Origin: Spirochaetota bacterium
GTDB taxonomy: Bacteria; Spirochaetota; Brachyspiria; Brachyspirales; JACRPF01
Assembly: GCA_038043445.1 (NCBI GenBank)
Contig: JBBTBY010000013.1
Span: 48,454-112,453 of the forward strand
Reading direction: 5' to 3'
Length of the DNA stretch: 64,000 nt
A program made the translations under genes and the position numbers. Positions 16,110 to 55,538 of the stretch are shown in pieces (position 1 is the stretch's first letter; the number at the start of each line of letters is the position of its first letter). The notes below the pieces were generated by a model. That model was not told the origin of the DNA, did not search any database, and saw only the letters and a program-made list of their open reading frames with translations.

Positions 16110-16137
16110 TTGACAGTATTGATCGTTTTGATAGAAT
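16110..16137 (+). promoter_or_regulatory. Promoter placed for a leaderless AraC-type mRNA
   Basis: -35 TTGACA (16110-16115), 16-nt spacer, -10 TAGAAT (16132-16137). Only 6 nt separate the -10 from the ATG at 16144, so transcription should start at or next to the start codon. No Shine-Dalgarno sequence is present. Confidence 0.7.
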
Positions 16138-16143
16138 CATTCC

Positions 16144-16962
16144 ATGCACAGCACAGCGGTGATCGATGCGCTCCTCGAGCATGCGCATTTTCGGGCCAAC
16201 AGTATCGGCGCATTGCGGCTACCGCCGGGTGAACGGCGCGAGCGTCGTACGGACGCGAATCTGATGGTGCTCATCGACAGCGGCTCGGCGTCGATGGACA
16301 TCCGGACCAGAACGATGCGTGCATCGTCGGACGATCTTGTCACAGTCCCGATGGGATCAAATTATTTTACCGCGAGCAGAAGCGGCTGCAAATTCAGGTA
16401 TATAGAATTCGATATCTTCATCTCGGACAGCAGATCGCTCGGGTATCAGATAATCTCGCCTCGGGTAATGCCCGGTTTCCTTCGTACGCATGAGGGAAAA
16501 ACGCTTTCCACAGCGGTCGATCGAGTGCTCGCGTCAGAACCGTTCGCGCGCGCGACGCTCAACGGTGCGCTCGCTGTCGCGGCATCCACGTGCGCAGACG
16601 TTCGCCGTGCCTCAAGAAGCGGAGGAGAGGATACCCGCGCCATGCGGCAGTTCGCCCCCGTGCTTGACATCGTACGACGACGCTACCATGAACGCCTGAC
16701 CGTTCGCGATCTTGCTGCGGCAGCCGGGCTCACGGAAAGCCACTTCTGCAATTCTTTCAAACGGACGTTCGGCGTCTCGCCGCTGCAGTATCTCATGCGC
16801 ATCAAGCTGTATTCGGCGCAGCAGATGCTGCGCGAGGGTTCTTATTCTGTCGTAGAGATCGCACGCCGGCTCGGGTTTTCTGATCAGGCCACGTTTTCCC
16901 GCGCATTCAAGCGATACTTTCGAGTGCCGCCCTCAAAAATACTTCCGAAAATGTGGAAATAG
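16144..16962 (+). CDS. AraC-family transcriptional regulator
   Basis: 272 residues. The N-terminal half (residues 1-135) is a cupin-like sensing region (LMVLIDSGSASMDIRTRTM). The C-terminal 100 residues are a double helix-turn-helix of AraC type: LTVRDLAAAAGLTESHFCNSFKRTFG, then YSVVEIARRLGFSDQATFSRAFKRYF, ending RVPPSKILP (each quoted as a motif position, about residues 180-265). Members usually activate sugar-utilisation genes on binding a ligand. It is transcribed away from the lipoprotein gene at 14973-16025, its most likely target. The promoter layout predicts a leaderless transcript. Confidence 0.9.
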   Translation: MHSTAVIDALLEHAHFRANSIGALRLPPGERRERRTDANLMVLIDSGSASMDIRTRTMRASSDDLVTVPMGSNYFTASRSGCKFRYIEFDIFISDSRSLGYQIISPRVMPGFLRTHEGKTLSTAVDRVLASEPFARATLNGALAVAASTCADVRRASRSGGEDTRAMRQFAPVLDIVRRRYHERLTVRDLAAAAGLTESHFCNSFKRTFGVSPLQYLMRIKLYSAQQMLREGSYSVVEIARRLGFSDQATFSRAFKRYFRVPPSKILPKMWK

Positions 16963-17115
16963 CTGTTGCCCATGTTCCCGCTCGACACGTGGCCGCACGA
17001 TAGTATCCGCCGGATGCGAGATGCCGTCGGACACGACGGGCGCATCGATGCGCATGCCGGGGGTGGGCGGAGAGACGTGGTTGGAATCCGTTCGCACAGG
17101 GGACGATGCGGGGGA

Positions 17116-17144
17116 TTGACGCTATCCGGGGGAGGGAATATACT
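17116..17144 (+). promoter_or_regulatory. Promoter TTGACG-N17-TATACTGTC upstream of a mini-ORF
   Basis: -35 TTGACG (17116-17121), 17-nt spacer, -10 TATACT (17139-17144) followed by GTC. The first ATG is 7 nt downstream (17152) and opens a 20-codon frame that precedes the alpha/beta hydrolase gene. Almost the same arrangement occurs at 19132 and 35946. Confidence 0.65.
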
Positions 17145-17151
17145 GTCAGGC

Positions 17152-17214
17152 ATGCGTGCGTCTGTGGCGCAGCCTGGCGGCGAAGCCGCTACGGACAGCA
17201 GCGGTAAGAAATGA
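17152..17214 (+). CDS. Leaderless mini-ORF (possible leader peptide) before the alpha/beta hydrolase
   Basis: A 20-codon frame with stop (begins MRASVAQPGG) starting 7 nt after a consensus -10 element and ending 52 nt before the hydrolase gene. The surrounding stretch 16963-17266 has no other gene. Coding status is uncertain; the same arrangement is found twice more in the window. Confidence 0.35.
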   Translation: MRASVAQPGGEAATDSSGKK

Positions 17215-17266
17215 AAAGTCATATCCGTTTTTGCAGCAACCCAATGGAGCGTAAAGGAGAATTCCA

Positions 17267-18133
17267 ATGAGAAGGTATGTTTTACTCTTATCGACGGCTG
17301 CGATGGTGCTATCGTTGTCAGCATACAATGACAATACTGCGACTATGGCAAAAGCGGACAAGGCATCCAAGAACATTGTTTTTATTCACGGAATGTTTAT
17401 GAATCCGAAAAGCTGGGATGGTTGGATAAAATATTACGAGTCAAAGGGATATAAGTGCCATGCTCCGGCATACCCGTTTCACGATGGCAATCCATCAGAC
17501 CTGCGAAAAATCATTAATCCCGGCCTTGGCACTCTGCGATTTGAGCAAGTAGTCAGTTCATTGGCATTGTACATGGATACACTACCCGAAAAGCCGATAC
17601 TCATCGGCCATTCTATGGGAGGGCTTGTCGTCCAGAAATTGATCGAAATGGATAAAGGGACTGCGGGAATCTGCATTGACTCTGCACCGCCACAAGGCAT
17701 TACCAGCTTTTCGTGGAGTTTCCTGAAAGCGAATCTACCGACGATCAATCCATTCGAAGGTGATAAACCATGTCTGCCGGATGTCGCGTGGTTCCAGTAT
17801 GCTTTCTGCAATACTATGACCATGGCTCAGACGAGTGTCGAGTATGAGAAGTATGTCGTGCCTGAAAGCCGCAACATCCCTCGAAGCAGCACGACGATCG
17901 AAGGGAAAATTGATTTCAAGAAACCGCATGCGCCATTGCTGTTTATTTCAGGCGAAAAAGACAACATCATACCAGCAGCATTGAATGTGAAGAACTACAA
18001 GGCGTATACCGATAAGGCGAGCAAAATTGACTTCAAGAAGTTCGCAGGCAGAACTCATTACATATGCGGGCAAGAGAATTGGGAAGAGGTTGCGGCATAT
18101 ATCAGCGAATGGATTGATGGCTTGAAGCGATAG
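17267..18133 (+). CDS. Exported alpha/beta-hydrolase (lipase/esterase-like)
   Basis: 288 residues. The start ATG at 17267 has AAGGAG 8 nt upstream. A hydrophobic N terminus (MRRYVLLLSTAAMVLSLSAY) suggests export. The fold is alpha/beta-hydrolase: the oxyanion strand is NIVFIHGMFMNPKSWDGW, the nucleophile elbow is GHSMGG (Ser about residue 117), the acid is probably Asp in SGEKDNIIP, and the base is His in GRTHYICG near the C terminus. The substrate is unknown; esterase or lipase activity is the family norm. Base composition is visibly more AT-rich than the neighbours, with more AAA/AAT codons, which hints at horizontal acquisition. Downstream, 18134-18384 contains no recognisable feature. Confidence 0.85.
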   Translation: MRRYVLLLSTAAMVLSLSAYNDNTATMAKADKASKNIVFIHGMFMNPKSWDGWIKYYESKGYKCHAPAYPFHDGNPSDLRKIINPGLGTLRFEQVVSSLALYMDTLPEKPILIGHSMGGLVVQKLIEMDKGTAGICIDSAPPQGITSFSWSFLKANLPTINPFEGDKPCLPDVAWFQYAFCNTMTMAQTSVEYEKYVVPESRNIPRSSTTIEGKIDFKKPHAPLLFISGEKDNIIPAALNVKNYKAYTDKASKIDFKKFAGRTHYICGQENWEEVAAYISEWIDGLKR

Positions 18134-18384
18134 TAGATGAAGGATCTCAAGACGATTGCCGTTGACCTGCTGTGAAATATTATTGTGCTGTTTTATAGAT
18201 CGCTGCACCGATCGTCCCTGTTTTCATTATGTCGAGATTCTGATCGCTCACTGGATTGATCCATATTCCCGCTTGCATTCGTTCAATGCTACGGTTGGAA
18301 TTGACAGGGATTCGGCGGGTGGGATACTGAGAGGTAAGCGAGGCGGCGATAGTGGCGAATGAAAACTCCTTTCCTTTTTTTAGA

Positions 18385-19053
18385 TCAGATCTTCGGCAGA
18401 ATACATGTACCCGTCGGCAATGCGTGCGCGAACGAAACACTATCCCTGACACGCTCCGGGAATGACATACCGCCCCGCGCGCAGTCCTCGTATTGATGGA
18501 AATCGGAACCCGATATCCGTACGAGTGAATGCTCGGCCGCGTATCGAGCCGCTTCTTCATTGAAAGAATTCTGGCGCGGATTCCCGTTGAACGCTTCCAT
18601 GCCGTCAAGCAGCGACGGATCGGCCCTCGTGATGCCTGCGCGGAACGGATGCGCCTGAAATATCCGCATCGTCGTACCCCGGGAAAAGGTGTAGAACGAT
18701 GAGAGCGTCATCTCATTGAGACGCGGATACGCGTAGAGATGCTCCTCGGTCACTCCGTAGACGAGATAATCGTTCGGGTCGCTGTCAAAGCGGAGCTCAA
18801 GCCCGAGCATGATATCCATATCGTGCTTTGCGCCTTCCTCGCGGGCACGGCGATACCCCTTAAGATAATTATCGATCTTTGTGCGCTGCGACAGGCCGTT
18901 GAGCGGGTTCATGAAAAATCCGTTGAAGTAATGATCGGTGATGACGATGCCGTGATATCCCGCATGATGATACTGTGACACCATATCGTGTGCGCGGACC
19001 TTTCCGCAGGGGCTTGTCTCCGCCGTGTGAGCGTGGGTTTCGTAGATGAACAT
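18385..19053 (-). CDS. PHP-domain metal-dependent phosphoesterase
   Basis: 222 residues from the ATG at 19053; the frame extends further but the homologous part starts here. The PHP motifs are present: YETHAHTAETSPCG (HxH), VITDHYFNG (DH), GLELRF (E), FQAHPFRAG (H) and SGSDFHQYE (DxH at the end). These residues bind a di- or trinuclear metal centre and hydrolyse phosphoesters; histidinol-phosphatase and nucleotide-phosphatase activities are both known in the family. It is divergent from the LacI/AraC hybrid regulator at 19225. The promoter (-35 TTGATA, -10 TATACT) ends 10 nt before the ATG, so the leader would be very short or absent. Confidence 0.85.
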   Translation of the reverse strand: MFIYETHAHTAETSPCGKVRAHDMVSQYHHAGYHGIVITDHYFNGFFMNPLNGLSQRTKIDNYLKGYRRAREEGAKHDMDIMLGLELRFDSDPNDYLVYGVTEEHLYAYPRLNEMTLSSFYTFSRGTTMRIFQAHPFRAGITRADPSLLDGMEAFNGNPRQNSFNEEAARYAAEHSLVRISGSDFHQYEDCARGGMSFPERVRDSVSFAHALPTGTCILPKI

Positions 19054-19063
19054 GGGCGCGTAC

Positions 19064-19091
19064 AGTATATGAAAACGGCGGTAATTATCAA
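19064..19091 (-). promoter_or_regulatory. Promoter of the PHP phosphoesterase gene
   Basis: Minus strand: -35 TTGATA (19086-19091), 16-nt spacer, -10 TATACT (19064-19069), 10 nt before the ATG at 19053. No Shine-Dalgarno sequence lies in between. Confidence 0.55.
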
Positions 19092-19131
19092 ACAGCGGAA
19101 CGGTGCGGGTCCGCATGCGTATACAAGCGCC

Positions 19132-19160
19132 TTGACGATGCATGATGGCGGGACTATACT
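19132..19160 (+). promoter_or_regulatory. Promoter TTGACG-N17-TATACTGTC of the LacI/AraC hybrid regulator
   Basis: -35 TTGACG (19132-19137), 17-nt spacer, -10 TATACT (19155-19160) followed by GTC. A mini-ORF starts 7 nt downstream at 19168, ahead of the regulator gene. Confidence 0.65.
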
Positions 19161-19167
19161 GTCGTGT

Positions 19168-19212
19168 ATGACAGCATCTCGATACAGCCAATGCCCGGAA
19201 ACTGAGCGGTAA
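19168..19212 (+). CDS. Leaderless mini-ORF (possible leader peptide) before the hybrid regulator
   Basis: 14 codons plus stop (MTASRYSQCPETER). The ATG is 7 nt after the -10 element, and the stop is directly followed by the AAGGGA ribosome binding site of the regulator gene at 19225. Its coding status is unproven. Confidence 0.35.
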   Translation: MTASRYSQCPETER

Positions 19213-19224
19213 GGGAACACACGA

Positions 19225-20505
19225 ATGGCGACATATACCGTTGCAGCGCTGTTCCCGCACTTCGATCTCAGACGCGGGTTGGCGCATGAAATGGCGTTCG
19301 ATATGGTGCACGGCATACGCGAGGAGATGCGCCGTCTCGATCTCGATGTCCACTTCTACGACAAACATGATGACAGCGCGCACTTCTGGCGGAAGGGGTA
19401 TCGATCATACGCCGGTGTCATCGGTTTTCTTGCATGGGGCGACCCGGCGGTGACCGATCGATGGAAGGCGCTTGCGCGGAAGATCCCGGCCGTGTCGCTG
19501 TTCCACCGTGTTCCCCCCGCCGGCAATGCGGTTGTCAATGATGATGCGAAGGGCGTGGCCATGGCTGTTGAGCATCTTGTCAGAGAAGGCGCGCGATCGA
19601 TAGGATTTTTTTCATTGCGTGATGATGTGCACACCCGCAGGCGTTTTGCCGCATTCCGCGCCGCACTTTCATCCCGCGGCCTTACGCTTCGCGCCGATCG
19701 TCTCTGCGGGGTCACCGTCGGCGGCCGTGCCGATGCCATTGCGTCCGCGGCGGCGAACATCCCGCGATACAGTACGGCCGAACGCGCGTTCATCCGTACG
19801 ACCGCCCATGAGTACCTCGCATCGCGGCCGCTGGAGGCAGTGCTATGCGAGAACGATTATCTCGCGTACCATCTGATCGCGGAGGCGAACGCGTGCGGGC
19901 TTTCCGTTCCCGAGGATATAGCCGTTATCGGCTTTGATAATTTCCGGATGATAGAATGCATACCGGCGCTGTCGAAAAAGTATCGTCCGCTCCTTACCTC
20001 CGTCGATCTGGATTGTTTTGCGGTGGCACGGGAAGGGGTACGCCTGCTCTACGGCATGCTTACCGCGCAGCTGCCGCTGCGGGGGAACACTGTCGTCATC
20101 GATCCCACGCTTGTCGTCCGTGCGTCGTCATGCCGACGCTCCCCTGCGGGGAACGGTCCCGAACAGGATACGTTCAAGGCACGCGTACGGGTGTTCGTCA
20201 AGAACCACTATAACGATCCGTCGCGGCTGAAGAGCATCGCTGAGGATTTCGATATGACCTATCGATCGTTCCTGCAGCGGTTCAAGCGCGAATTCAGCGT
20301 AACGTTCACCGATCTCGTTTCGTCGCATCGTCTTGAGCGTGCGGCGCATCTGCTCGAAGTCACCGGCAGGCCGATCACCCGCATCCTCATCGAGACCGGG
20401 TACGGATCGTATCAGAACTTCCTGAAATTCTTCAGAAAGCGCTACCGCCTGTCCCCCATGGAATATCGGCGTGCGCATCTCGGCCGGAGACAAGGCAGGG
20501 GATGA
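19225..20505 (+). CDS. XylR-like regulator: LacI-type sensor domain fused to AraC DNA-binding domain
   Basis: 426 residues. Residues 1-290 form a periplasmic-binding-protein fold as in LacI/GalR regulators (YRSYAGVIGFLAWGD, VVNDDAKGVAMAVEHLV, PEDIAVIGFDNF). Residues about 320-420 form an AraC-type double helix-turn-helix (PSRLKSIAEDFDMTYRSFLQRF and ITRILIETGYGSYQNFLKFF). This is the architecture of E. coli XylR, a sugar-activated regulator. There is no N-terminal LacI helix-turn-helix. It precedes a secreted protein gene and the large GH2-like gene on the same strand and probably controls them. AAGGGA lies 9 nt before the ATG. Confidence 0.9.
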   Translation: MATYTVAALFPHFDLRRGLAHEMAFDMVHGIREEMRRLDLDVHFYDKHDDSAHFWRKGYRSYAGVIGFLAWGDPAVTDRWKALARKIPAVSLFHRVPPAGNAVVNDDAKGVAMAVEHLVREGARSIGFFSLRDDVHTRRRFAAFRAALSSRGLTLRADRLCGVTVGGRADAIASAAANIPRYSTAERAFIRTTAHEYLASRPLEAVLCENDYLAYHLIAEANACGLSVPEDIAVIGFDNFRMIECIPALSKKYRPLLTSVDLDCFAVAREGVRLLYGMLTAQLPLRGNTVVIDPTLVVRASSCRRSPAGNGPEQDTFKARVRVFVKNHYNDPSRLKSIAEDFDMTYRSFLQRFKREFSVTFTDLVSSHRLERAAHLLEVTGRPITRILIETGYGSYQNFLKFFRKRYRLSPMEYRRAHLGRRQGRG

Positions 20506-20604
20506 TAATTGTTGCTGTGTAAAAAGTTGTGCCGGCAGCGGGAGAATCTGTTATTATAGAGGAAAGCGATATATACTCTGCGGCAGGGATGCAAGGAGCC
20601 CGTT

Positions 20605-21309
20605 ATGGCGAGACTATGCGTGATCTGTGCGCTGCTTTCCGGCGTTCTGTCGGCTGCGTCCCCGGGAACATATCTTCTCCGCGATGATTTTGAAAAGAGC
20701 GCGGCGGGCGGCAAACCCGCCGGATGGGTGGCCATGTCGGATGAGGGCAATGAGATCGCCGTGGTCGCACAGCCCGCGATCGGGACACGGGCGGTCAGGC
20801 TTTCCCATACATCGGGCACGGTGTGGAAGCCGTATCTCTCCGGTGTTTTCGGCGGCGGAAGCGATACCATGACCGCGGTCGATTTCGATGTATACTTCAC
20901 GGGCAGGTTCACTGCGGACGCGAAGTCGTTCTTCTTCATCATGCGCGGACCCGTTGATACACCGTACATACGCATCGCGCTCGGCGGTCCTTCGGGCGCT
21001 GCGCCGGAGGGGCGGGACGGTTTTTTCCCGCTCAATGTACCGATACGGACGAATACCTGGTATCATATCAGCGTGCGCATCGATGCGCTTTCCAAAGGGG
21101 AATCCGGCACGTATACGCTCATCATATCGGACGCAACGCGTGTCATGCCGTTCGAGAATATCCCGCTGTGCATACCGAAAAGCTATGCGCCGTCAAAAAA
21201 AATATTCCCGGCAAAAGCGGAAGGCTCGCCGGGATTCACGCTCCCTGAAGCGCCGGGGAAAGACGTGTATATCGACAATGTTTCCATACAAGTGATCGAT
21301 AAGAAATAA
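20605..21309 (+). CDS. Secreted protein, likely jelly-roll fold, paired with the GH2-like enzyme
   Basis: 234 residues; the start ATG at 20605 has AAGGAG 8 nt upstream. A signal peptide (MARLCVICALLSGVLSA) precedes a beta-rich domain beginning with the pattern YLLRDDFEKSAAGGKPAGW. This opening (disordered DDFE plus GxxPxGW) is typical of secreted concanavalin-like or carbohydrate-binding jelly-roll proteins. The segment TWYHISVRIDA further supports a LamG-like sheet. No catalytic residues are recognised. It ends 15 nt before the GH2-like gene, so it may bind the same polysaccharide. The GH71-like protein at 48053-50170 has a similar N-terminal module. Confidence 0.75.
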   Translation: MARLCVICALLSGVLSAASPGTYLLRDDFEKSAAGGKPAGWVAMSDEGNEIAVVAQPAIGTRAVRLSHTSGTVWKPYLSGVFGGGSDTMTAVDFDVYFTGRFTADAKSFFFIMRGPVDTPYIRIALGGPSGAAPEGRDGFFPLNVPIRTNTWYHISVRIDALSKGESGTYTLIISDATRVMPFENIPLCIPKSYAPSKKIFPAKAEGSPGFTLPEAPGKDVYIDNVSIQVIDKK

Positions 21310-21324
21310 TCCACGGGGTCGACC

Positions 21325-25596: not shown

Positions 25597-25742
25597 TGCG
25601 GACCCTCCGCGGGTAGTGCACGGTTCGCCGCGGCCTATTTTTGATATTTTCCGTGTTCAATAACAGCAGCACGCATTGCATTAGCACTACCATTTTTTGC
25701 GTGTCAAGGATATACTGCATGGTCGAAACGAAGGAGCACGTC

Positions 25743-27706: not shown

Positions 27707-27766
27707 CCCTTCTCATTACGCGCCGGCATCACATCAGCAGCGGACCGCACTGCACAAAAGGAAGCC

Positions 27767-29614: not shown

Positions 29615-29681
29615 ATATCGATACGAACGGACAAGTGAATGCACGAGCGCGTGCACAAGCGCCTGGGGTTGTCGCGAAAAT

Positions 29682-29713
29682 ATAGAACAAGGGCTCATGA
29701 GCCCTTGTTCTAT
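29682..29713. terminator. Perfect 32-bp palindrome after typA, probable transcription terminator
   Basis: Half-site ATAGAACAAGGGCTCA is followed by its exact complement, giving a 16-bp stem without a spacer. There is no long T-run, only TTGTTCTAT. The inner 22 bp are identical to the hairpin after tsf at 59245-59272, which has a proper T-run. Confidence 0.7.
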
Positions 29714-29791
29714 GCAATACTGGCAACCTTGCGTTCAATTCTCATGTGTATCTCTATGCATGGCGTTTTCGCAGCAGTCTCTACTTGCTTC

Positions 29792-29820
29792 TTGCACGCA
29801 TCGATGTTTTATTGTATAGT
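29792..29820 (+). promoter_or_regulatory. Promoter for a leaderless alaS mRNA
   Basis: -35 TTGCAC (29792-29797), 17-nt spacer, -10 TATAGT (29815-29820). The alaS ATG (29827) begins 6 nt after the -10, and no Shine-Dalgarno sequence is present. Confidence 0.7.
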
Positions 29821-29826
29821 ACCGCC

Positions 29827-31629
29827 ATGACAGCAGCACAACTCAAACAGAACTATCTCGATTTTTTCCGGTCGAAAGGCCATGCACGGATACAAAGCGC
29901 ATCGCTTCTGCCGGAGAACGATCCGACGGTGCTCTTTACGACCGCCGGCATGCATCCGTTGGTGCCGTATCTTCTCGGCGGAAAACATCCGATGGGCAGG
30001 CGCCTTGCCGATGTCCAGAAATGCATACGTACGCAGGACATCGACAGCGTGGGCGACGACACGCACACCACGTTCTTCGAAATGCTCGGCAACTGGTCAC
30101 TCGGCGATTATTTCAAGGACGAAGCGATACGCATGAGCCATGAATTCCTGACATCGAAGGAATGGCTGAACATCGATCCGAAGAAACTTGCCGTCACCGT
30201 GTTCGCCGGCGATGCGGACGCACCCTTTGACGATGAGGCAAAGCGCGTGTGGCTTTCACTGGGCATGCCGGAACACAAGATAACGTCGCTCCCGAAATCC
30301 GACAATTGGTGGGGGCCCGCCGGTCTTACCGGACCGTGCGGTCCGGATACCGAGATGTTCTACTGGCTCGGTGAGGGTTATCCGCCGGAATCGAGCAATC
30401 CTGAGAATGACAAGAAGAACTGGATGGAGATATGGAACGATGTCTTCATGCAGTACAATAAGACAGCCGAGGGGAGATACGAACCGCTCGCACAGAAGAA
30501 CGTCGATACGGGGCTCGGCGTTGAACGAGTGACCTGTCTCCTGCAGGGCAAGAAAACCGTGTATGAGACCGAACTCTTCACCCCGATAATCGCAAAGATA
30601 GAGGCGCTCTCCGGCGCATCGTATGCCGACGCATCGAAAAAAGTCTCCTTCCGCGTCATCGCCGATCATCTGCGCGCGGCGAGTTTCATACTCGGTGACG
30701 AGCGCGGTGTGACGCCGTCCAATATCGGTGCGGGCTATATCCTCCGCCGCTATATACGCCGCTCGATACGCCATGGGCGGCAGCTCGGCATCAATGAATC
30801 GTTCTGTCACACGATAGCGGACGTTATCGTGTCCATCATGCAGGAGCAATGGCCGGAGCTGGCGAAGAATAAAGCGGTCATTATCGATGAGCTTCAGAAG
30901 GAAGAGGAGCGCTTTTCCAAGACGCTTTCACAGGGCCTTAAGGAATTCGAGAAGCTTGTGAGCGGACTTGAGATCGCGTTCCAGAGAACAGGAAAGCGAA
31001 TCACGGTGATATCCGGGAAGAACGCGTTCAAATTGTACGATACCTACGGCTTCCCGCTTGAGATGACCGAAGAGCTTGCGAAAGAGCGCGGACTCACCGT
31101 CGATACAGCGGAATTCAACGGCGCGTATGAGAAGCATCAGGAGCTCTCGCGGCAGGGCGCCGACCAGCAATTCAAGGGCGGACTCATCGATCATTCCGAG
31201 CAGACGACGCGGCTGCATACGGCGACGCATCTCCTTCATAAGGCGCTCCATATCGTGCTCGGCGAACACGCGAAGCAGAAGGGGAGCAATATCACCGCCG
31301 AACGGCTGCGCTTCGATTTTACGCATGGCGCAAAGATGACCGATGATGAGGTGAAACGCGTCGAGGCGATCGTGAACGAGCAGATACAGCGTGCGCTCGA
31401 TGTGAAGATGGAAGAGCTTTCCTACGACGAGGCGAAGGCATCCAATGCCACGGGTCTGTTCGAATCGAAGTACGGCGAACGGGTAAAGGTGTTCACCATC
31501 GGCGATTTCAGCAAGGAGATATGCGGCGGTCCGCATGTACAGAACACGCGCGAGATCGGATCGTTCAGGATACAGAAGGAAGAAAGCTCTTCCGCCGGCG
31601 TGCGGCGTATACGAGCGGTGCTTTCTTAG
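29827..31629 (+). CDS. alaS: Alanine-tRNA ligase, short form lacking the C-terminal domain
   Basis: 600 residues against about 870 for most bacterial AlaS. The catalytic core (FFRSKGHARIQSASLLPEND, FTTAGMHPLVPY, CIRTQDIDSVGDDTHTTFFEML in parts) and the tRNA-binding helical domain are present. The editing domain has zinc-binding HTATHLLHKAL and CGGPHV. The protein stops right after the editing domain, so the DHHA1/C-Ala domain is missing. Such short AlaS forms are known from spirochaetes such as Borrelia. It charges tRNA-Ala with alanine in the cytoplasm. The start lies 6 nt after a consensus -10, so it is probably translated without a leader. Confidence 0.96.
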   Translation: MTAAQLKQNYLDFFRSKGHARIQSASLLPENDPTVLFTTAGMHPLVPYLLGGKHPMGRRLADVQKCIRTQDIDSVGDDTHTTFFEMLGNWSLGDYFKDEAIRMSHEFLTSKEWLNIDPKKLAVTVFAGDADAPFDDEAKRVWLSLGMPEHKITSLPKSDNWWGPAGLTGPCGPDTEMFYWLGEGYPPESSNPENDKKNWMEIWNDVFMQYNKTAEGRYEPLAQKNVDTGLGVERVTCLLQGKKTVYETELFTPIIAKIEALSGASYADASKKVSFRVIADHLRAASFILGDERGVTPSNIGAGYILRRYIRRSIRHGRQLGINESFCHTIADVIVSIMQEQWPELAKNKAVIIDELQKEEERFSKTLSQGLKEFEKLVSGLEIAFQRTGKRITVISGKNAFKLYDTYGFPLEMTEELAKERGLTVDTAEFNGAYEKHQELSRQGADQQFKGGLIDHSEQTTRLHTATHLLHKALHIVLGEHAKQKGSNITAERLRFDFTHGAKMTDDEVKRVEAIVNEQIQRALDVKMEELSYDEAKASNATGLFESKYGERVKVFTIGDFSKEICGGPHVQNTREIGSFRIQKEESSSAGVRRIRAVLS

Positions 31630-31632
31630 CCG

Positions 31633-33163: not shown

Positions 33164-33191
33164 TTGACGTTGATGCAAAGTACGATATAAT
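33164..33191 (+). promoter_or_regulatory. Promoter of dxs with almost no leader
   Basis: -35 TTGACG (33164-33169), 16-nt spacer, -10 TATAAT (33186-33191). The dxs ATG is at 33202, 10 nt after the -10. The intervening bases (CGCCTCTTCT) contain no Shine-Dalgarno sequence. Confidence 0.7.
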
Positions 33192-33201: not shown

Positions 33202-35091
33202 ATGTACTTGGAAACGATCGATTCCCCTGCTGACCTCAAAAAGCTCGCAGCCGACCAATTGCCCGCACTTGCCGGTGAGATACGTGCGTTCATCCTGCAG
33301 AACATATCGAGGACGGGCGGGCATCTCGCAAGCAATCTCGGCGCGGTGGAACTTACGCTCGCGCTCCACTATGCGTTCGAATCCCCGAAGGACAAATTCA
33401 TCTTCGATGTCGGGCATCAGTCGTATACGCATAAGATAGTGACCGGCAGAAAGGGGCGCTTCCATACCGTGCGCACGTATCACGGGCTTTCGGGCTTTCC
33501 CCGCCGTACGGAATCCGCGCATGACATCGCCGATACCGGGCATGCATCGACGTCGATATCGCTCGGGCTCGGGCTTGATACCGCTGTCCGCCTGAAAAAG
33601 GCGGAGGGGCGCGTCATCGCCATCATCGGGGACGGGTCGATCACCGGCGGGCTTGCGCTCGAGGCTATCAATAATGCCGGGCATCTGCCGACGAACCTCA
33701 TCATCATCGTCAACAATAATGAGATGTCCATCGGGACGAACATCGGCGCTTTCGCCAAGTACCTCAACAAGAAGATACAGGCGCCGGGCGTACAATCGCT
33801 TGCGATGAGCATCGATGCGCTTGCGGACAAGCTCCCCTTCGGCGAACGCGCGAAGGACATCATCCATCGTATCGAATCATCGGTGAAAGCGTTCATTGCG
33901 CCGGGCATCGTGTTCCGGGAGCTCGGGTTCCGCTATCTCGGTCCCGTCGACGGTCATTCCATTGACGATCTTATCGCCACGTTCGATCTTGCGAAAACGA
34001 TAAGCGGACCGCTCCTCATCCAGGTGAACACGATCAAGGGAAAGGGATACGAACATTCGGAGATGAATCCTTCATCGTATCACGGTGTGGGGGAATTCGA
34101 TGTCGCCACGGGGACGGCGAAGAAGAAAAAACAGAAGACGTTCTCCGCGCTGTTCGGCGAAACCCTCACGCAGCTTGCGGCCGACGACAGCCGCATCGTG
34201 GCGATAACCGCCGCCATGTGCGAGGGCACGGGGCTTGAGCCGTTCTCACGCGCCTACCCCGGACGTTTTTTCGATGTGGGTATCGCCGAAGGGCATGCGC
34301 TTACGTTCGCCGCGGGGCTTGCCATCGGCAATTGCCGTCCTGTCGTCGCGCTCTACTCCACGTTCCTGCAGCGCGGTTTCGATAATGTCATCCACGATAT
34401 CGCGAACATGAATCTGCCGGTCATCATCGGCATTGACCGCGCGGGGCTCGTTCCCGAGGACGGCGAGACGCATCAGGGTATTTTCGATCTCGCGTACCTC
34501 AGGATGATACCGAACATGACGATATTCGCGCCGGCGGGCGCACACGACCTTGCCGAAGCGATCGCCTGCGCGCTTTCGCGCGGCACACCGACAGCGATAC
34601 GATATCCGAAAGATGCCGTTCCCGATCTCCCGCCGAACCTTGTTCCGAAAGAGATGGTGTACGGCAAGGCGCATACCGTGTTCGACGGTAAGGACGGCGC
34701 GGTGCTGTCCTTCGGGAGCACGCTTGTGACCGCGTACCATGCGATCAATGACCTGTCGCAGAAACCCTCGCTTGCGCTTATCAACCTGTCCACCGTGTGG
34801 CCGCTCGATGAAGACGCCATCGTCAGCGCGGCGATGAAATATAAACGGCTCATGATCATCGAAGAGGGTGTCGTCAACGGCGGCATCGGGAGCGCGGTGC
34901 TCGAGGTCCTGGCACGCCACGAGACAGCAGTGCCGGTGAAGCTTCTCGGGATTCCGAACAGTTTCGTGCCGTCGGCCTCGCGGGAGGTGCTCCTCAAGAA
35001 GTACCGTCTTGACCGCGTGGGACTTCGCCGCGAAATGCAGGTCTTCTTCTCTCGACGGGGGTTCGCATCGTGGCGGCTCAGAAATCGGTAA
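33202..35091 (+). CDS. dxs: 1-deoxy-D-xylulose-5-phosphate synthase
   Basis: 629 residues, normal length. The thiamine diphosphate site is GDGSITGGLALEAINNAG (about residue 145), and the family motifs DVGHQSYTHKIVTGR and GHASTSISLGLGL precede it. The pyrimidine-binding half contains RFFDVGIAEGHALTFAAGLA. It condenses pyruvate and glyceraldehyde-3-phosphate, the first step of the non-mevalonate isoprenoid pathway. The ATG at 33202 fits the family N terminus; the longer frame does not. The 3' end overlaps the GTG start of an AraC-type gene by 22 nt. Confidence 0.97.
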   Translation: MYLETIDSPADLKKLAADQLPALAGEIRAFILQNISRTGGHLASNLGAVELTLALHYAFESPKDKFIFDVGHQSYTHKIVTGRKGRFHTVRTYHGLSGFPRRTESAHDIADTGHASTSISLGLGLDTAVRLKKAEGRVIAIIGDGSITGGLALEAINNAGHLPTNLIIIVNNNEMSIGTNIGAFAKYLNKKIQAPGVQSLAMSIDALADKLPFGERAKDIIHRIESSVKAFIAPGIVFRELGFRYLGPVDGHSIDDLIATFDLAKTISGPLLIQVNTIKGKGYEHSEMNPSSYHGVGEFDVATGTAKKKKQKTFSALFGETLTQLAADDSRIVAITAAMCEGTGLEPFSRAYPGRFFDVGIAEGHALTFAAGLAIGNCRPVVALYSTFLQRGFDNVIHDIANMNLPVIIGIDRAGLVPEDGETHQGIFDLAYLRMIPNMTIFAPAGAHDLAEAIACALSRGTPTAIRYPKDAVPDLPPNLVPKEMVYGKAHTVFDGKDGAVLSFGSTLVTAYHAINDLSQKPSLALINLSTVWPLDEDAIVSAAMKYKRLMIIEEGVVNGGIGSAVLEVLARHETAVPVKLLGIPNSFVPSASREVLLKKYRLDRVGLRREMQVFFSRRGFASWRLRNR

Positions 35092-41364: not shown

Positions 41365-41421
41365 GCATGGATGGTGTTTCAGAAAGGAATGAAGTCGCAC
41401 GCGACATGCGGGAGTACGATA

Positions 41422-44247: not shown

Positions 44248-44264
44248 TCGAAAGGAGCATTCGT

Positions 44265-45011: not shown

Positions 45012-45037
45012 AAGAATTTTGACGGAAGGATACTTCC

Positions 45038-47945: not shown

Positions 47946-48052
47946 TTCCATTGTCTCTTTATCGTTCGCTGGTATCGCCTGAAAACCGTTCCGAACAGGG
48001 TATTTTCATTTGTCGGCGGAATCCCGTGATGCATCACATTTTCCCAAGCAAC

Positions 48053-50170: not shown

Positions 50171-50183
50171 GCTATGCTCCTCA

Positions 50184-50208
50184 ATGATATATCATAAGTA
50201 TATATCAT
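50184..50208. promoter_or_regulatory. Inverted repeat between the GH71-like and AraC genes
   Basis: ATGATATAT and its complement ATATATCAT are separated by 7 nt. It overlaps the candidate -10 (TATACT or TATGAT on the minus strand) of the GH71-like gene, 14 nt from its start codon. A regulator binding site is plausible. Confidence 0.5.
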
Positions 50209-50219
50209 CTGCGGGATGT

Positions 50220-50248
50220 TTGCTTTCATTCCCTTGCCGCGATAAAAT
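50220..50248 (+). promoter_or_regulatory. Promoter for a leaderless AraC-type mRNA
   Basis: -35 TTGCTT (50220-50225), 17-nt spacer, -10 TAAAAT (50243-50248). The ATG at 50256 begins 7 nt after the -10, without a Shine-Dalgarno sequence. Confidence 0.55.
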
Positions 50249-50255
50249 ACTATAC

Positions 50256-51107
50256 ATGGTTCGACGACGATTGTCCGGCAAATTCCAGCTTGACCTCAGC
50301 GGCATGGCAGGTGCGGGTCTTCTCAATTTCTATGCGACGCGGGCACGGCAGATACGTCCGCCGACACCGCCGCATACGCATGCCGGCTTTGCTGAGCTCT
50401 ATTATGTAAGCCGCGGCGAGCAGTTCTTCGAGGTGAACGGCTATCCGGCACCGCTTCACGCAGGAGAGATGCTCATAACGTTCCCCGAGGACAGGCACAG
50501 CAGCGCCGGCCACCCGAATGAAACGGTCACATCATATATGCTCTGGATCGATATCACGCGACCCGATGGTTTTCTCGGGCTCAGCGGGGACGATTCGCGG
50601 CTGCTCCATCGCCGTTTCACCGGCATTACGAACCGGCATGTGATAGTGCCGGGGATCGAAACGTTGTTCCACGCCATTGTCGATGATGCGCACTCGCGCG
50701 ATGCGTTGGCGCGCCTTTCGATGCAGCAGCATCTCAGGGAGGTAGTGCTTCGCATCATCACTGCCGAGCGGGCGAATCGTCCGCGGCGATCCGCCGTCAT
50801 GCGTTCGGTATTGCGCTACATCGATGCGCACGCGCGGGAGGATATCGGCATCGGCACGCTTGCAGCACTCGCGCATCTGTCGGTGCCGCGCTTTCGTCAT
50901 GTGTTCCGTGAGACCGTGGGCCTTGCGCCGAACGAATACATCGTGCGGCAGAAGATAGCGCAGGCGAAGACGCTTCTTTATGACGGATCATCGGTCACCG
51001 ATGCTGCGTTCACGATGGGCTTTTCCTCAAGCCAGTATTTTTCCACCGTGTTCAAGCGGCTGACCGGGCAGATACCGCGCACGATAAAAGTTCGGACGAA
51101 AGCGTGA
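50256..51107 (+). CDS. AraC-family transcriptional regulator
   Basis: 283 residues from ATG 50256; the longer frame upstream lies in the divergent gene's region. The cupin N terminus is HTHAGFAELYYVSRGEQFFEV and EMLITFPEDRHSS. The double helix-turn-helix is IGIGTLAALAHLSVPRFRHVF and SSVTDAAFTMGFSSSQYFSTVF, ending KRLTGQIPRTIKV. It is divergent from the GH71-like gene and most probably activates it in response to a breakdown product. The start follows directly after a -10 element. Confidence 0.92.
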   Translation: MVRRRLSGKFQLDLSGMAGAGLLNFYATRARQIRPPTPPHTHAGFAELYYVSRGEQFFEVNGYPAPLHAGEMLITFPEDRHSSAGHPNETVTSYMLWIDITRPDGFLGLSGDDSRLLHRRFTGITNRHVIVPGIETLFHAIVDDAHSRDALARLSMQQHLREVVLRIITAERANRPRRSAVMRSVLRYIDAHAREDIGIGTLAALAHLSVPRFRHVFRETVGLAPNEYIVRQKIAQAKTLLYDGSSVTDAAFTMGFSSSQYFSTVFKRLTGQIPRTIKVRTKA

Positions 51108-51269
51108 TGGTATTCTATCATCCGATATCGGATGATGCACACTACGTAGAGGAATTCGCTGCGACATCCTTGGCGCATGTTCGCGCACTTGTTTTGCGCT
51201 CACTGATACCAGGCGGCAGAGCCGCTGTGTGTGTGGAACGATGGTGGCGGATAAAAACTCCTTTCATAG

Positions 51270-51298
51270 TTGCAGAAAACAGTAAGCGGCGATATCAT
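51270..51298 (+). promoter_or_regulatory. Promoter for a probably leaderless exported-protein mRNA
   Basis: -35 TTGCAG (51270-51275), 17-nt spacer, -10 TATCAT (51293-51298), 8 nt before the ATG at 51307. No Shine-Dalgarno sequence. The rest of 51108-51269 shows no feature. Confidence 0.55.
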
Positions 51299-51306
51299 AC
51301 CGCCCG

Positions 51307-51966
51307 ATGAGACTTCTCCTGCTGCTGCTTGTCACTGCGTCCGTATACGCACAAATTCCTACCGCGGCCGATCTCTATGCAGCCGTCAGTGCGTCATACA
51401 AGAAAAGCATGCCGGCAAGTTTCACCGCGGACATTGCCGGCGACATCATCGATAAGCAGGTCGGTACGATACCCAAAAGCCAGACGACGGGAAAGGGCAA
51501 GGCGAAACTCACCCTGTATGTGAAGCAGGGGTTCAAGCCAAAGCTCGTCCTCACGGGCGTGTCCTCGTTCTATGAGACGATGTTCTCGCGGTTCGTGCCG
51601 CATCTCATGTTCCTCGGACCGTTCGCTATCGTGGAACAGCGCGATTATAAAGGCTTCCTTGCACGATTCGCGATAGCGTCCGTTGATGACGCCGCCGATA
51701 TGTGGCGCGTGAAAGTGCGCGATCTTAAGGAAGATGCGGGATTTGCCTATCTGTTCATCGATAAGACGAATTCGCTCATCATGCGCGGGGAATACTGGTT
51801 CGAGAAGAAGCTCATCATGCGTTCGGCGCTGACCTACACCAACAATGGCCAATGGAATATCATCGACAGCATCGATTTTTCCGGCGAGGGTGAAAAGCCG
51901 TATTCGTCGTCGGTGCATATGAGCCGGCATACGGCCGCCGTTATAAAGGACGATTTTTTCAAGTAA
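51307..51966 (+). CDS. Exported protein, possibly LolA-like
   Basis: 219 residues. The signal peptide is MRLLLLLLVTASVYA. The mature part reads like an unclosed beta-barrel: ASFTADIAGDIID, GKAKLTLYVKQGFKPKLVLT, FAYLFIDKTNSLIMRGEYWF, SALTYTNNGQWNIIDSIDFS. The order of strands and the late D-x-TNSLIMRGEYW segment resemble LolA/LolB-type lipoprotein carriers or outer-membrane lipoprotein-sorting proteins. The match is only by pattern. It would work in the periplasm. It stands alone between an AraC gene and another exported protein. Confidence 0.65.
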   Translation: MRLLLLLLVTASVYAQIPTAADLYAAVSASYKKSMPASFTADIAGDIIDKQVGTIPKSQTTGKGKAKLTLYVKQGFKPKLVLTGVSSFYETMFSRFVPHLMFLGPFAIVEQRDYKGFLARFAIASVDDAADMWRVKVRDLKEDAGFAYLFIDKTNSLIMRGEYWFEKKLIMRSALTYTNNGQWNIIDSIDFSGEGEKPYSSSVHMSRHTAAVIKDDFFK

Positions 51967-52008
51967 TCCGTCCCGATAGGCGCAAAGTGCAAATTCCTAC
52001 TAAGACAA

Positions 52009-52037
52009 TTGACATTAATTGAATAGTTTATTATACT
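52009..52037 (+). promoter_or_regulatory. Consensus promoter TTGACA-N17-TATACTGTC
   Basis: -35 TTGACA (52009-52014), 17-nt spacer, -10 TATACT (52032-52037) followed by GTC, as at 17139, 19155 and 35968. Here the leader is about 50 nt with a GGAGGT ribosome binding site before the ATG at 52096, and no mini-ORF follows. Confidence 0.7.
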
Positions 52038-52095
52038 GTCCTCTCACACGGGTTTGCTGCCCCGCTCAAAACGGCATAAAATTCGGAGGTATCGT

Positions 52096-52644
52096 ATGCA
52101 CAAGACACTGCTCGCTTTCGCTGCACTTCTCGCGGTCACCGTTGCCGGGGTATCGTTCGCAGAAGAGGAGACGTATGATGATCTTTTCACGTTCCGCTGC
52201 ACGAAGGATTACAGCGGTATTGCTGAGAAATGGGCCGCGGCATACATGAAGAAGGTCAAGAAGATCGAGGCGAAAGCAGAAGTGATCGATGAAAGCGAAT
52301 TCAAGGACAAGATCGACAATGAAATGCTTGCTATCGGGCCCATGCTCCCGCAGCGCGATGTTGATAAACTTGAATCGAGCGTCAGCCCGGCTGTCCATAT
52401 CGAAATTTTCAAAGACGGCTCGAGGTCGATCTTTGCATGGGGCGATGAGATCATGATAAATAATTCGACCTCCGGCACGTCGTCAAACAAGCTTCTGAAA
52501 GAGGCGCTTGATCTTATACTTTCAAGCATCGGGCAGACGATCGCAAAAGATGCCGGCTGCACCCCGCTTACGCTGAAGAATCTCAATGAAACGCGGAAAA
52601 AGTGGAAGCTGAAAGAGCTCACGAAGACGGAATACAAGTTCTGA
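52096..52644 (+). CDS. Small exported protein of unknown function
   Basis: 182 residues; ATG at 52096 with GGAGGT 8 nt upstream. The signal peptide is MHKTLLAFAALLAVTVAGVSFA. The mature part is highly charged (KKVKKIEAKAEVIDESEFKD) with helical segments, and no family is recognised. A strong consensus promoter and binding site suggest high expression, as for an abundant periplasmic protein. The next gene starts 66 nt downstream. Confidence 0.75.
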   Translation: MHKTLLAFAALLAVTVAGVSFAEEETYDDLFTFRCTKDYSGIAEKWAAAYMKKVKKIEAKAEVIDESEFKDKIDNEMLAIGPMLPQRDVDKLESSVSPAVHIEIFKDGSRSIFAWGDEIMINNSTSGTSSNKLLKEALDLILSSIGQTIAKDAGCTPLTLKNLNETRKKWKLKELTKTEYKF

Positions 52645-52710
52645 TTTTATCATAACATTCCCGCGTGGAATACCGATAAATAGGAGAGAATCTATTGTCG
52701 AGGTGTATCC

Positions 52711-53436
52711 ATGCGATACGTGATAATACTTTCGCTCGCCGCGCTCGCCTTGTGCGGAGAGACGAACATCAATGTGCTCTTTTCCTATAAGAGCGGGGCG
52801 GTCGCCTATTACAACAGCCAGCGGGTGAACGCCTCCGAATATGCCCGCGCTGCGGCGCTGCGCGATTCGATCGCGAAGAGTGCTCGTGTGCGCGCGGTGT
52901 TCATCGCCGATGTGCTCCCCGAAGCGGGGAACGAGATCGTAGCGCTTAAGAACGACGGCCGCGAGGGATTCTCCATCCATGCGACGAACGGCAGCACGGT
53001 ATTCAGCTATACGCCGAGCGGCACGACCGCCGTATCCTCTGCGATGGAGCTTTCGGGGCATCGTGATGCGACGAACGAATTCCGCGTGCTGAAATATTAT
53101 GTGCTTACCGAAAAGCCCGACCGGCGTCATGCGGACTGTCATCTCTTCCGCATCGATACGGACGGCATATCGCTCATTACCGTAGTGCAGTTCTATGACG
53201 AGATACGTACGAAGCGCGGAGTGTACACGACGACCATGGAAAGCATATTCGTCGATATAACGAAGGACGGATACCTCGATCTTCTTATAGCGCAGGTGGA
53301 ACAGGGTGTCACCAAAAGCCGCGCTGAATACCAGCTCTATTCGTATTGCCCGAAGGAAAAAGTATATGCATTCACGCTCTCCGACCTGGGGCAGGAAGAT
53401 GCAGTGAGCTATGCCGCGTATTTCGCTCGGAAATGA
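52711..53436 (+). CDS. Exported protein of unknown function
   Basis: 241 residues; ATG at 52711 with a GAGGTG site. The signal peptide is MRYVIILSLAALALCG. The middle part contains NEIVALKNDGREGFSIHATNG and KDGYLDLLIAQVEQG, patterns seen in FG-GAP/VCBS-like beta-propeller blades (the latter with the D-x-DG-like YLDLLI strand). With one or two such blades a complete propeller is not formed, so the fold is unclear. No enzymatic motif is visible. Confidence 0.7.
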   Translation: MRYVIILSLAALALCGETNINVLFSYKSGAVAYYNSQRVNASEYARAAALRDSIAKSARVRAVFIADVLPEAGNEIVALKNDGREGFSIHATNGSTVFSYTPSGTTAVSSAMELSGHRDATNEFRVLKYYVLTEKPDRRHADCHLFRIDTDGISLITVVQFYDEIRTKRGVYTTTMESIFVDITKDGYLDLLIAQVEQGVTKSRAEYQLYSYCPKEKVYAFTLSDLGQEDAVSYAAYFARK

Positions 53437-53448
53437 TACGGGGCACGA

Positions 53449-53477
53449 TTGCCTCACAGCGCATACCGTGATAGAAT
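53449..53477 (+). promoter_or_regulatory. Promoter for a leaderless proB mRNA
   Basis: -35 TTGCCT (53449-53454), 17-nt spacer, -10 TAGAAT (53472-53477). The proB ATG (53484) follows after 6 nt, with no Shine-Dalgarno sequence. Confidence 0.6.
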
Positions 53478-53483
53478 GACCGC

Positions 53484-54617
53484 ATGGCCGATACAATAAC
53501 CGATATCCTCTCTCGTGCAGCGACCATCGTCATAAAGCTCGGCACAGCGCAGCTTACTGACGAACGCGGGCTTTCCGAGGACCGCATACGCGCATTCGCA
53601 GCATCCATGGTATCCGCTATGCGCAGGGGAAAACGCATCATCCTCGTAACCTCAGGAGCAGTGGCGGCCGGGAGTGCGGTGATATTCGACGGAAAGAAGC
53701 CCGACACCATACCCAAGAAGCAGGCTGCCGCGAGCGTCGGGCAGATAACGCTCATGCACAGATATTTCGAGGCGTTCGCAGCGCTCGGTGTGCGCATCGG
53801 CCAGATACTCCTTTCCGAATACGTGCTCCGCGACCGTGTGAGCTATCTCAACGCGCGTAATACGATACATGAGCTCCTTAACAACGGCATCATTCCCGTG
53901 ATAAACGAGAACGACACCATCGCCACCGAGGAGCTGAAATTCGGCGACAATGATTATCTCGGAGCCGTCGTCGCCTGCCTTGCCGAAGCGGACATCTATG
54001 TGATACTCACCGACACCGACGGGCTCTACCGCAATTATGACGATGCACAAAAACGCGAACTTATCGGCGTCGTTGAGCGTATCGATGCTGCGATAAAGAA
54101 AGAGGTTTCCGGGAAGACATCGAAGTTCTCCACGGGCGGCATGGCGAGCAAGATGCGCGCTATGGAATTGACCATGCATTCGGGTATTACCGGCGTCATC
54201 GCGAACGGCGCCGATACGAACGTGCTCGGCCGTATCGCCTCGGGTGAGCATGTCGGCACGGTATTTCTCCCCGGGGGGGCGGCCTCGCAGCGCAAGCGGT
54301 GGATACTCGGCAATGTGAATTTAAAAACAAAAGGGACCATCACTGTCGATGCGGGTGCTGCAAAAGCGCTCGTGGAGAATGATAAAAGTCTTCTTCCCGG
54401 GGGCATAGTATCCGTGAGCGGAAAGTTCTCGCTTGGTGACGCGGTGAATGTCGCGGATGCATCAAAACGAGTCATCGCGCGCGGCATTGTGAATTACAGC
54501 AGTGCCGAGATACAGAAGATTAAAGGTAAGCGCTCAGGCGATATTCGTGAGGTGCTCGGCGAGGCCCCGTATGAAGAAGTGATCCACCGCGATAATCTTG
54601 TGGTCGATCAGCTATAA
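53484..54617 (+). CDS. proB: Glutamate 5-kinase
   Basis: 377 residues, full length. The amino-acid-kinase domain has TIVIKLGTAQLTD, ILVTSGAVAAGSAV, IIPVINENDTIATEELKFGD and the ATP-site LTDTDGLYRN and KFSTGGMASKM. The C-terminal PUA domain (residues about 275-370, KGTITVDAGAAKALVENDK) is present. It phosphorylates L-glutamate, the first step of proline synthesis, in the cytoplasm. The usual partner proA is not adjacent. It ends 6 nt from the stop of a convergent AraC gene. Confidence 0.96.
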   Translation: MADTITDILSRAATIVIKLGTAQLTDERGLSEDRIRAFAASMVSAMRRGKRIILVTSGAVAAGSAVIFDGKKPDTIPKKQAAASVGQITLMHRYFEAFAALGVRIGQILLSEYVLRDRVSYLNARNTIHELLNNGIIPVINENDTIATEELKFGDNDYLGAVVACLAEADIYVILTDTDGLYRNYDDAQKRELIGVVERIDAAIKKEVSGKTSKFSTGGMASKMRAMELTMHSGITGVIANGADTNVLGRIASGEHVGTVFLPGGAASQRKRWILGNVNLKTKGTITVDAGAAKALVENDKSLLPGGIVSVSGKFSLGDAVNVADASKRVIARGIVNYSSAEIQKIKGKRSGDIREVLGEAPYEEVIHRDNLVVDQL

Positions 54618-54623
54618 ATCGCG

Positions 54624-55502
54624 TTACTCGTGTGTTCGGGCATGCGTCATCTTCTTTCTCCGATAGTCGCCGGGAGAACGTCCTGTATAACGTTTGAACA
54701 CCGTGCTGAAATACTGGCTTGATGAGAAGCCAAGTTGATACGAAATATCCGTTATTGATCTTCCCTTTTCAGCAAGAAGACGCTTCGATCGCTCCACCCT
54801 CCGGCGCATTATATAATCATGCACCGGCATGCCGACGACCGTGCGGAACACTTCGCGGAAGCGGGATATGGACAGACCCGCGCGACCGGCAAGATCTGTT
54901 ATCGGCAGGATGCGTTCGTGCGATGTTTCTATGTGGGAAAGGATTGGTGAAAGATCCGCAGGCGGATCCATGCGCTGCTTTTTGATCGCGGCAAGCATTT
55001 CAGAAAGAAACTGTATGCATGCGCCGACAGCGAGCGCTTCCCTTATGTCCTTGTCATCGATGTGCCGGGAAAAGAATTCCTTGAGCGGCGCCGCGGCTGC
55101 GGTGCCTATCGAATATTTTCCGCTGCGCAAGCCGCGCATTGCGCGGAAGATCGGTCTTCCGAGCGACGGGTGCAGGCCGAGCAGGCGGCCGCGTCCTGAT
55201 ATGTCGATACGGATAAAATAATCGCGGCGTTTTTCGAGCATGTGCTTTCCGGTGCCGTGCCGCTCACCCGGCATGGCGATGAATATATCCCCTGCCTTGA
55301 GATCGTACATTCTGCCGGGGATCTCATATCGCTGTGTTCCACGGACCGTGTAGTGTATCTCGATGTGATGCGCATGTGCATGCGTTTCGCGCGGGGCGAC
55401 CGCTTTGGGGAATGTCCAATCGGCGAGCACCAGTGCCGGTCGTCTGCGGCGGCCGAGATAGACACTGATGCCGCGCTGATAGTTCGTTGAGGATGCCGGC
55501 AT
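54624..55502 (-). CDS. AraC-family transcriptional regulator
   Basis: 292 residues from ATG 55502. The cupin N terminus is ETHAHAHHIEIHYTVRGTQRYE and DIFIAMPGERHGTGKH. The double helix-turn-helix is ITDLAGRAGLSISRFREVFR and RSITDISYQLGFSSSQYFSTVFK, ending RYTGRSPGDYRRKK. It is divergent from the large GH-A-like gene at 55607 and is its probable activator. A -10 element ends 7 nt before the ATG, so the mRNA should be leaderless; an earlier in-frame start at 55538 would lie within the -35. Confidence 0.9.
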   Translation of the reverse strand: MPASSTNYQRGISVYLGRRRRPALVLADWTFPKAVAPRETHAHAHHIEIHYTVRGTQRYEIPGRMYDLKAGDIFIAMPGERHGTGKHMLEKRRDYFIRIDISGRGRLLGLHPSLGRPIFRAMRGLRSGKYSIGTAAAAPLKEFFSRHIDDKDIREALAVGACIQFLSEMLAAIKKQRMDPPADLSPILSHIETSHERILPITDLAGRAGLSISRFREVFRTVVGMPVHDYIMRRRVERSKRLLAEKGRSITDISYQLGFSSSQYFSTVFKRYTGRSPGDYRRKKMTHARTHE

Positions 55503-55509
55503 GTGCGAT

Positions 55510-55538
55510 ATTTTACGGCGATTAATTATTAAACGCAA
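55510..55538 (-). promoter_or_regulatory. Promoter for a leaderless AraC-type mRNA, overlapping the divergent promoter region
   Basis: Minus strand: -35 TTGCGT (55533-55538), 17-nt spacer, -10 TAAAAT (55510-55515), 7 nt before the ATG at 55502. On the other strand a -10 (TATACT, 55556-55561) serves the GH gene at 55607 but has no good -35, as expected for an activator-dependent promoter. Confidence 0.55.

Follow-up and report, generated by a model that had tools for sequence, protein, structure and literature searches.

Promoters and genes in the window

Within the window, the whole 64,000-nucleotide stretch of DNA that was analysed, eight genes are preceded by sigma70-type promoters whose -10 box lies 6-10 nt from the ATG. 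AraC-family regulator 1 (272 aa; 16144..16962, plus strand; Pfam HTH_18 and HTH_AraC) follows a promoter at 16110..16137 (plus strand) that combines a -35 box TTGACA (16110-16115), a 16-nt spacer and a -10 box TAGAAT (16132-16137), leaving a gap of 6 nt to the ATG at 16144. On the minus strand, the gene for a PHP-domain protein (222 aa; 18385..19053; Pfam PF02811) has its promoter at 19064..19091, with TTGATA (19086-19091), a 16-nt spacer, TATACT (19064-19069) and a gap of 10 nt to the ATG at 19053. The gene for a short-form alanyl-tRNA synthetase, AlaS (600 aa; 29827..31629, plus strand; Pfam PF01411 and PF07973), is preceded at 29792..29820 (plus strand) by TTGCAC (29792-29797), a 17-nt spacer and TATAGT (29815-29820), 6 nt from the ATG at 29827. 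For dxs, encoding 1-deoxy-D-xylulose-5-phosphate synthase (629 aa; 33202..35091, plus strand; identified by Pfam, its N-terminus aligned in relatives), the promoter at 33164..33191 (plus strand) consists of TTGACG (33164-33169), a 16-nt spacer and TATAAT (33186-33191), with a gap of 10 nt to the ATG at 33202.

The same arrangement recurs further along the window. AraC-family regulator 2 (283 aa; 50256..51107, plus strand; Pfam AraC_binding and HTH_18) has a promoter at 50220..50248 (plus strand), with TTGCTT (50220-50225), a 17-nt spacer, TAAAAT (50243-50248) and a gap of 7 nt to the ATG at 50256. A predicted exported protein that falls in no Pfam family (219 aa; 51307..51966, plus strand), with a signal-like N-terminal sequence, follows a promoter at 51270..51298 (plus strand) made up of TTGCAG (51270-51275), a 17-nt spacer and TATCAT (51293-51298), 8 nt from the ATG at 51307. 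ProB, glutamate 5-kinase (377 aa; 53484..54617, plus strand; Pfam AA_kinase and PUA), is preceded at 53449..53477 (plus strand) by TTGCCT (53449-53454), a 17-nt spacer and TAGAAT (53472-53477), with a gap of 6 nt to the ATG at 53484. Finally, AraC-family regulator 3 (292 aa; 54624..55502, minus strand; Pfam AraC_binding and HTH_18) is preceded at 55510..55538 (minus strand) by TTGCGT (55533-55538), a 17-nt spacer and TAAAAT (55510-55515), 7 nt from the ATG at 55502.

These promoters had been proposed in an earlier, sequence-only reading of the window, and we recovered all eight at the positions it gave, read on the correct strands, with TTG-type -35 boxes, TAnnnT -10 boxes, spacers of 16-17 nt and gaps of 6, 6, 6, 7, 7, 8, 10 and 10 nt. 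Pfam agreed with its gene names (AlaS, ProB, Dxs, three AraC-family regulators, a PHP-domain protein and an exported protein without a family), and its claim that Shine-Dalgarno (SD) sequences are lacking was borne out, with none in the 18 nt before the ATG at any of the eight genes. The short form of AlaS is scattered over several phyla, and alaS was dropped as a taxonomic marker for that reason.

We scanned the window with a strict motif (a -35 box beginning TTG and matching at least four of six positions, a spacer of 16-17 nt, a -10 box matching at least five of six, a gap of 6-10 nt and ATG), finding eight sites, compared with a mean of 0.25 and a maximum of 1 in 60 Markov-1 sequences and with 0 in the reversed window. 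Four of these sites (AraC 16144, the PHP gene, dxs and proB) belong to the eight genes described above; of the remaining four, three precede open reading frames of 14-20 codons and one precedes an open reading frame of about 100 codons. Only half of the eight genes pass the strict motif, the -35 boxes of the other four (alaS, AraC 50256, AraC 55502 and the exported protein) matching TTGACA at 3/6 positions and being weak singly. The case for leaderless promoters rests on the class and not on single genes.

Distances from the -10 box to the start codon

The sequence-only reading had suggested comparing -10-to-ATG distances across the genome with controls. In the source genome (G000, 5.13 Mb), we combined whole-genome pattern searches with 1.16 Mb sampled as stretches, the first sampling of which favoured contigs with perfect hits. 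The pattern TTGACA-N16-18-TATAAT-N4-10-ATG occurs 17 times in the whole genome and 0 times in the reversed control, with a gap of exactly 6 nt in 9 of the 17 sites and of 7 nt in 4, while gaps of 11-40 nt hold 43 perfect sites over 30 gaps, or 1.4 per gap. A gap histogram over the 1.16 Mb likewise showed a sharp peak at 6-7 nt. When promoter-like sites were restricted to those whose ATG is in frame with a called gene (0.81 Mb), gap 6 accounted for 14 sites and the neighbouring gaps 5 and 7 for 1 and 4, respectively; the gap-6 peak stood above a hump of leadered genes at gaps 17-35. The distances are thus non-random, with a sharp mode at 6 nt.

This distribution bears on the idea that the -10-like boxes are merely AT-rich hexamers that arose by chance, the real promoters lying upstream and the mRNAs being SD-less but leadered. 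Some individual -35 boxes are indeed weak, and in the part of the window scanned, promoter-like sites showed no overall excess (7, compared with 6.1 in shuffles). The excess is, however, confined to gaps of 6-7 nt and absent in reversed controls, which refutes the idea for the class as a whole and makes it extremely improbable as an account of the data.

Gene starts were taken from a codon-usage caller, with homology backing limited to alaS, dxs and proB, and the true translation starts could instead lie further downstream behind SD sequences, the upstream ATGs being chance in-frame codons. The variable N-termini of AraC proteins, together with the caller's frequent choice of a later AraC start, would fit this arrangement. 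Against it, the ATGs of alaS and dxs coincide with conserved N-termini, relatives aligning from residue 1; the exported protein opens directly with its signal-like sequence; and an excess of in-frame ATGs at precisely 6-7 nt is not expected by chance. We consider downstream starts highly improbable.

Transcription begins about 7 nt after a -10 box, so a gap of 6 nt would place +1 on the A of the ATG. For dxs and the PHP gene, with gaps of 10 nt, the predicted leader would be 0-4 nt, making them near-leaderless and not strictly leaderless. Such cases leave room for a variant in which the transcripts have leaders of 1-5 nt or heterogeneous starts, translation following the ordinary 30S route at a start that lacks both structure and an SD. 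The exported protein, dxs and the PHP gene, with their gaps of 8-10 nt, speak for it, as do a G located 7 nt after the PHP -10 box, which would give a 4-nt leader, and the retention of the dxs gap of 10 in a same-family genome; the genome-wide mode, by contrast, lies at exactly 6 nt and does not spread over 6-10, and on balance we think the variant unlikely. Two further lines were set aside. Out-of-frame ATGs at gaps 6-8 (27, compared with about 4-5 per gap elsewhere) might have marked leaderless short open reading frames as a separate class, but several proved to be uncalled genes; and a pyrimidine at -1 was not taken to prove where transcription starts, being only suggestive in the source genome, where C or T occupies that position in 61% of all genes.

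By GTDB kinship the host belongs to Spirochaetota, in the order of Brachyspira, and its 16S rRNA is ~84-85% identical to those of Brachyspira-type genomes of that order. In three Brachyspira-type genomes, the gap was 6 nt in 48 and 7 nt in 16 of the 89 perfect sites listed, and a pyrimidine occupied -1 in 60 of the 64 sites at these two gaps. Across 29 genomes of the Brachyspira-type family, 280 sites fell at gap 6, compared with 1 in the reversed control and with 1,891 over 30 other gaps (63 per gap), which exceeds the per-gap rate ~4.4-fold, the spacer ranges of the two counts differing slightly. Among 30 genomes of the phylum that fall in other families, the enrichment was ~2.5-fold (35 sites at gap 6, 412 over 30 gaps). 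Five Clostridia also have perfect sites near ATG, but their distribution is flatter, with 12, 13, 19, 10, 10, 7 and 7 sites at gaps 4 to 10 (gap 6 in 19/78). A 16-nt spacer is favoured in the source genome (11/17) and in the Brachyspira-type genomes (43/89), compared with 11/78 in Clostridia. In the same-family genome G001, a promoter-anchored histogram likewise peaks at gap 6 (n = 6).

Single genes behave less uniformly than the class. The dxs geometry is kept in G001 (TTGACA-16-TATAAT-10-ATG), whereas dxs of Brachyspira is leadered; the ATG of proB follows a -10 box at 7 nt in Brachyspira (TATAAT-N7-ATG) and in genome G053 (TATATT-N7-ATG), but in several other genomes proB lies directly behind another gene; and alaS in G001, which represents a sister genus, has an SD and a -10 box ~40 nt upstream. 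Judged by these differences among relatives, the leaderless mode is gained and lost and is not conserved gene by gene. What is conserved in the order is the class, which, like the promoter geometry, its statistics and the absence of SD sequences, is seen directly in the DNA.

Two initiation modes and the AraC regulators

The sequence-only reading had also claimed that two initiation modes coexist, and the rest of the genome agrees. The 3' end of the 16S rRNA retains an intact anti-SD sequence, GGATCACCTCCTT, and an SD of 4 nt or more precedes 370 of 729 other genes, about half, compared with 5 of 58 leaderless-type genes; an SD in half of the other genes together with an intact anti-SD tail argues for two modes side by side. 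The SD deficit of the leaderless-type genes is partly geometric, because a -10 box 6 nt from the start codon takes up the space of an SD; in a control class with gaps of 12-17 nt, an SD was found in 10 of 23 genes. Leaderless-type genes also favour ATG, with 52 ATG, 6 GTG and 0 TTG start codons (n = 58), compared with 14, 6 and 3 in the control gaps.

Apart from the AraC genes, the strict motif at gap 6-7 precedes 27 of 459 first genes (6%) and 6 of 283 downstream genes. The leaderless mode is a minority one: strict criteria assign it to a few percent of genes, and we estimate that the share would rise to perhaps 6-10% if weaker -10 boxes are allowed. Its other members are mixed, including fmt, cdsA, uvrB, GntR/LacI and NtrC-type regulators, a GGDEF protein and radical-SAM proteins, among others, as well as two HEPN proteins.

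AraC-type genes (HTH_18) number at least 150 in the source genome and at least 150 in G001. For 106 of those in the source genome, we found a strict promoter at gap 6-7 in 26, with 0-4 at each other gap up to 35 and thus no excess at leadered distances over that range, whereas the 459 other first genes combine their 27 sites at gap 6-7 with a clear leadered hump at 19-33. Since the first sampling was biased, we repeated the AraC test on loci picked by HTH score alone, and the concentration persisted (11/55, compared with 27/459 other first genes; Fisher p = 0.001). In G001, the strict motif lies at gap 6-7 for 8 of 36 AraC genes. The observation that several regulators use the leaderless mode proved correct, applying to about a quarter of AraC genes compared with ~6% of other first genes. 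Transcript-opening genes are where the mode is concentrated, and among them chiefly those of the AraC family, which is greatly expanded. The AraC concentration is the most interesting part of the analysis, and it ties one regulator family to one mode of translation initiation in a way that can be tested. A bolder extension, which we regard as quite doubtful, is that in the host's family leaderlessness is the rule for most of the AraC-family regulators, of which each genome has at least 150; this would put a whole regulatory layer on an initiation route separate from that of metabolic genes and shiftable as a block, for example by stress favouring 70S initiation.

On the annotation side, several AraC starts are misplaced, the codon-based caller having often picked a later one. 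Where a gene caller relies on finding an SD, leaderless starts come out misplaced.

Explanation and known leaderless systems

We propose that housekeeping sigma70-type promoters with the -10 box 6-7 nt (up to 10) upstream of the ATG would direct RNA polymerase to start on, or a few bases from, the A of the AUG, yielding a leaderless or near-leaderless mRNA with no room for an SD site. That transcript 5' ends lie at or near the AUG is inferred from the promoter geometry, and the 5'-terminal AUG would most likely be recognised directly by 70S ribosomes, a route of leaderless mRNA initiation established in other bacteria. The leaderless reading put forward earlier is supported by the gap mode at 6 nt, the absence of SD sequences, the preference for ATG, the similar pattern in relatives and the flatter one in Clostridia. 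Taken together, we judge a leaderless or near-leaderless sigma70 promoter class beside SD-led genes to be the best explanation, with a probability of roughly 0.9.

Leaderless initiation is already known in bacteria, and the present case is a well-supported instance in a new lineage. With it, a little-studied spirochaete order, Brachyspira included, joins the bacteria that have a clear class of leaderless genes; in the literature searched, we found no description of leaderless transcripts in Brachyspira. The presence of both modes in one genome, along with the switching of alaS between sister genera, should be useful for studies of leader gain and loss. Zheng et al. (2011; PMC3160421) defined bacterial leaderless genes by a TA-like signal ~12 bp upstream of the start, with an excess in COG K, and among Spirochaetes found 1.8-6.9% leaderless genes in 6 of 18 genomes. 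The class described here shares with that survey the TAnnnT at ~12 bp before the start, the minority status beside SD-led genes and the excess of transcription genes (COG K). The main text of the survey does not name Brachyspira, and the sharp gap-6 mode, the -35 box with its spacer and the AraC concentration of the host lineage are not described there.

Within the same phylum, differential RNA sequencing of Leptospira interrogans mapped the transcript start no more than 10 nt from the start codon for ~440 genes and exactly at it for 170-184 (PMC5243855), so that 5' ends were measured there and are deduced from geometry here. Leptospira differs in belonging to another order and in its COG biases (R, H, E, F and G), and sigma54 elements aside, no sigma70-type motif was reported (PMC5243855). 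In Deinococcus-Thermus, a -10 motif directly before open reading frames drives leaderless mRNA, as tested with reporters, at ~30% of open reading frames and often in the absence of a -35 box (PMC12340547), whereas the host uses a -35 box with a 16-17-nt spacer at a few percent of genes; the 6% of non-AraC first genes (27/459) falls short of ~30%, in a count whose motif required a -35 box and so leaves -35-less cases uncounted.

Regulators stand out in other systems as well. They are prominent among the leaderless mRNAs of Streptomyces coelicolor, where TetR members feature (PMC4895711), and a leaderless enrichment in regulators is also found in Cupriavidus (PMC7563307), while the mRNA of VirF, an AraC-family member of Shigella, is cited as leaderless in PMC10519361. 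As in Streptomyces and Shigella, transcriptional regulators feature among the leaderless class, but the regulators enriched in the spirochaete family are those of the AraC type, of which every genome has at least 150.

A short alanyl-tRNA synthetase

The alaS gene of the window (29827-31629) encodes a short AlaS of 600 aa, comprising the catalytic part and the second additional domain. This form also occurs sporadically in Treponema, Clostridia, Patescibacteria and elsewhere. The AlaS of Brachyspira, by contrast, is a distant enzyme of ~870 aa, and the short gene was likely acquired by horizontal replacement. Short-form alaS genes in two further spirochaete families (locus L281 in genome G036 and locus L283 in G048) are also preceded by a promoter, with the -10 box ~9 nt before the ATG.

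Short ORFs behind strong promoters

Three strong, closely similar promoters (TTGACG, spacer, TATACTGTC) were found in the window at 17152, 19168 and 35982 (+), with a fourth of the same type in locus L091 at 4623. In each of the three window cases, an ATG 7-8 nt downstream opens an ORF of 14-20 codons, which terminates before a larger gene. The larger genes code for an alpha/beta hydrolase, a regulator of the AraC type and an oxidoreductase. These ORFs could possibly encode leaderless leader peptides, or the sites could be operators.

HEPN and AraC-type genes

Two genes for 132-aa HEPN-domain proteins (L106:4644-5042 and L146:7075-7473) have leaderless-type promoters with a gap of 6 nt between -10 box and start codon, recalling the leaderless toxin-antitoxin genes of other bacteria. 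The AraC/HTH_18 family is hugely expanded, with at least 150 genes per 5 Mb genome both in the window organism (G000) and in a member of the same family (G001).
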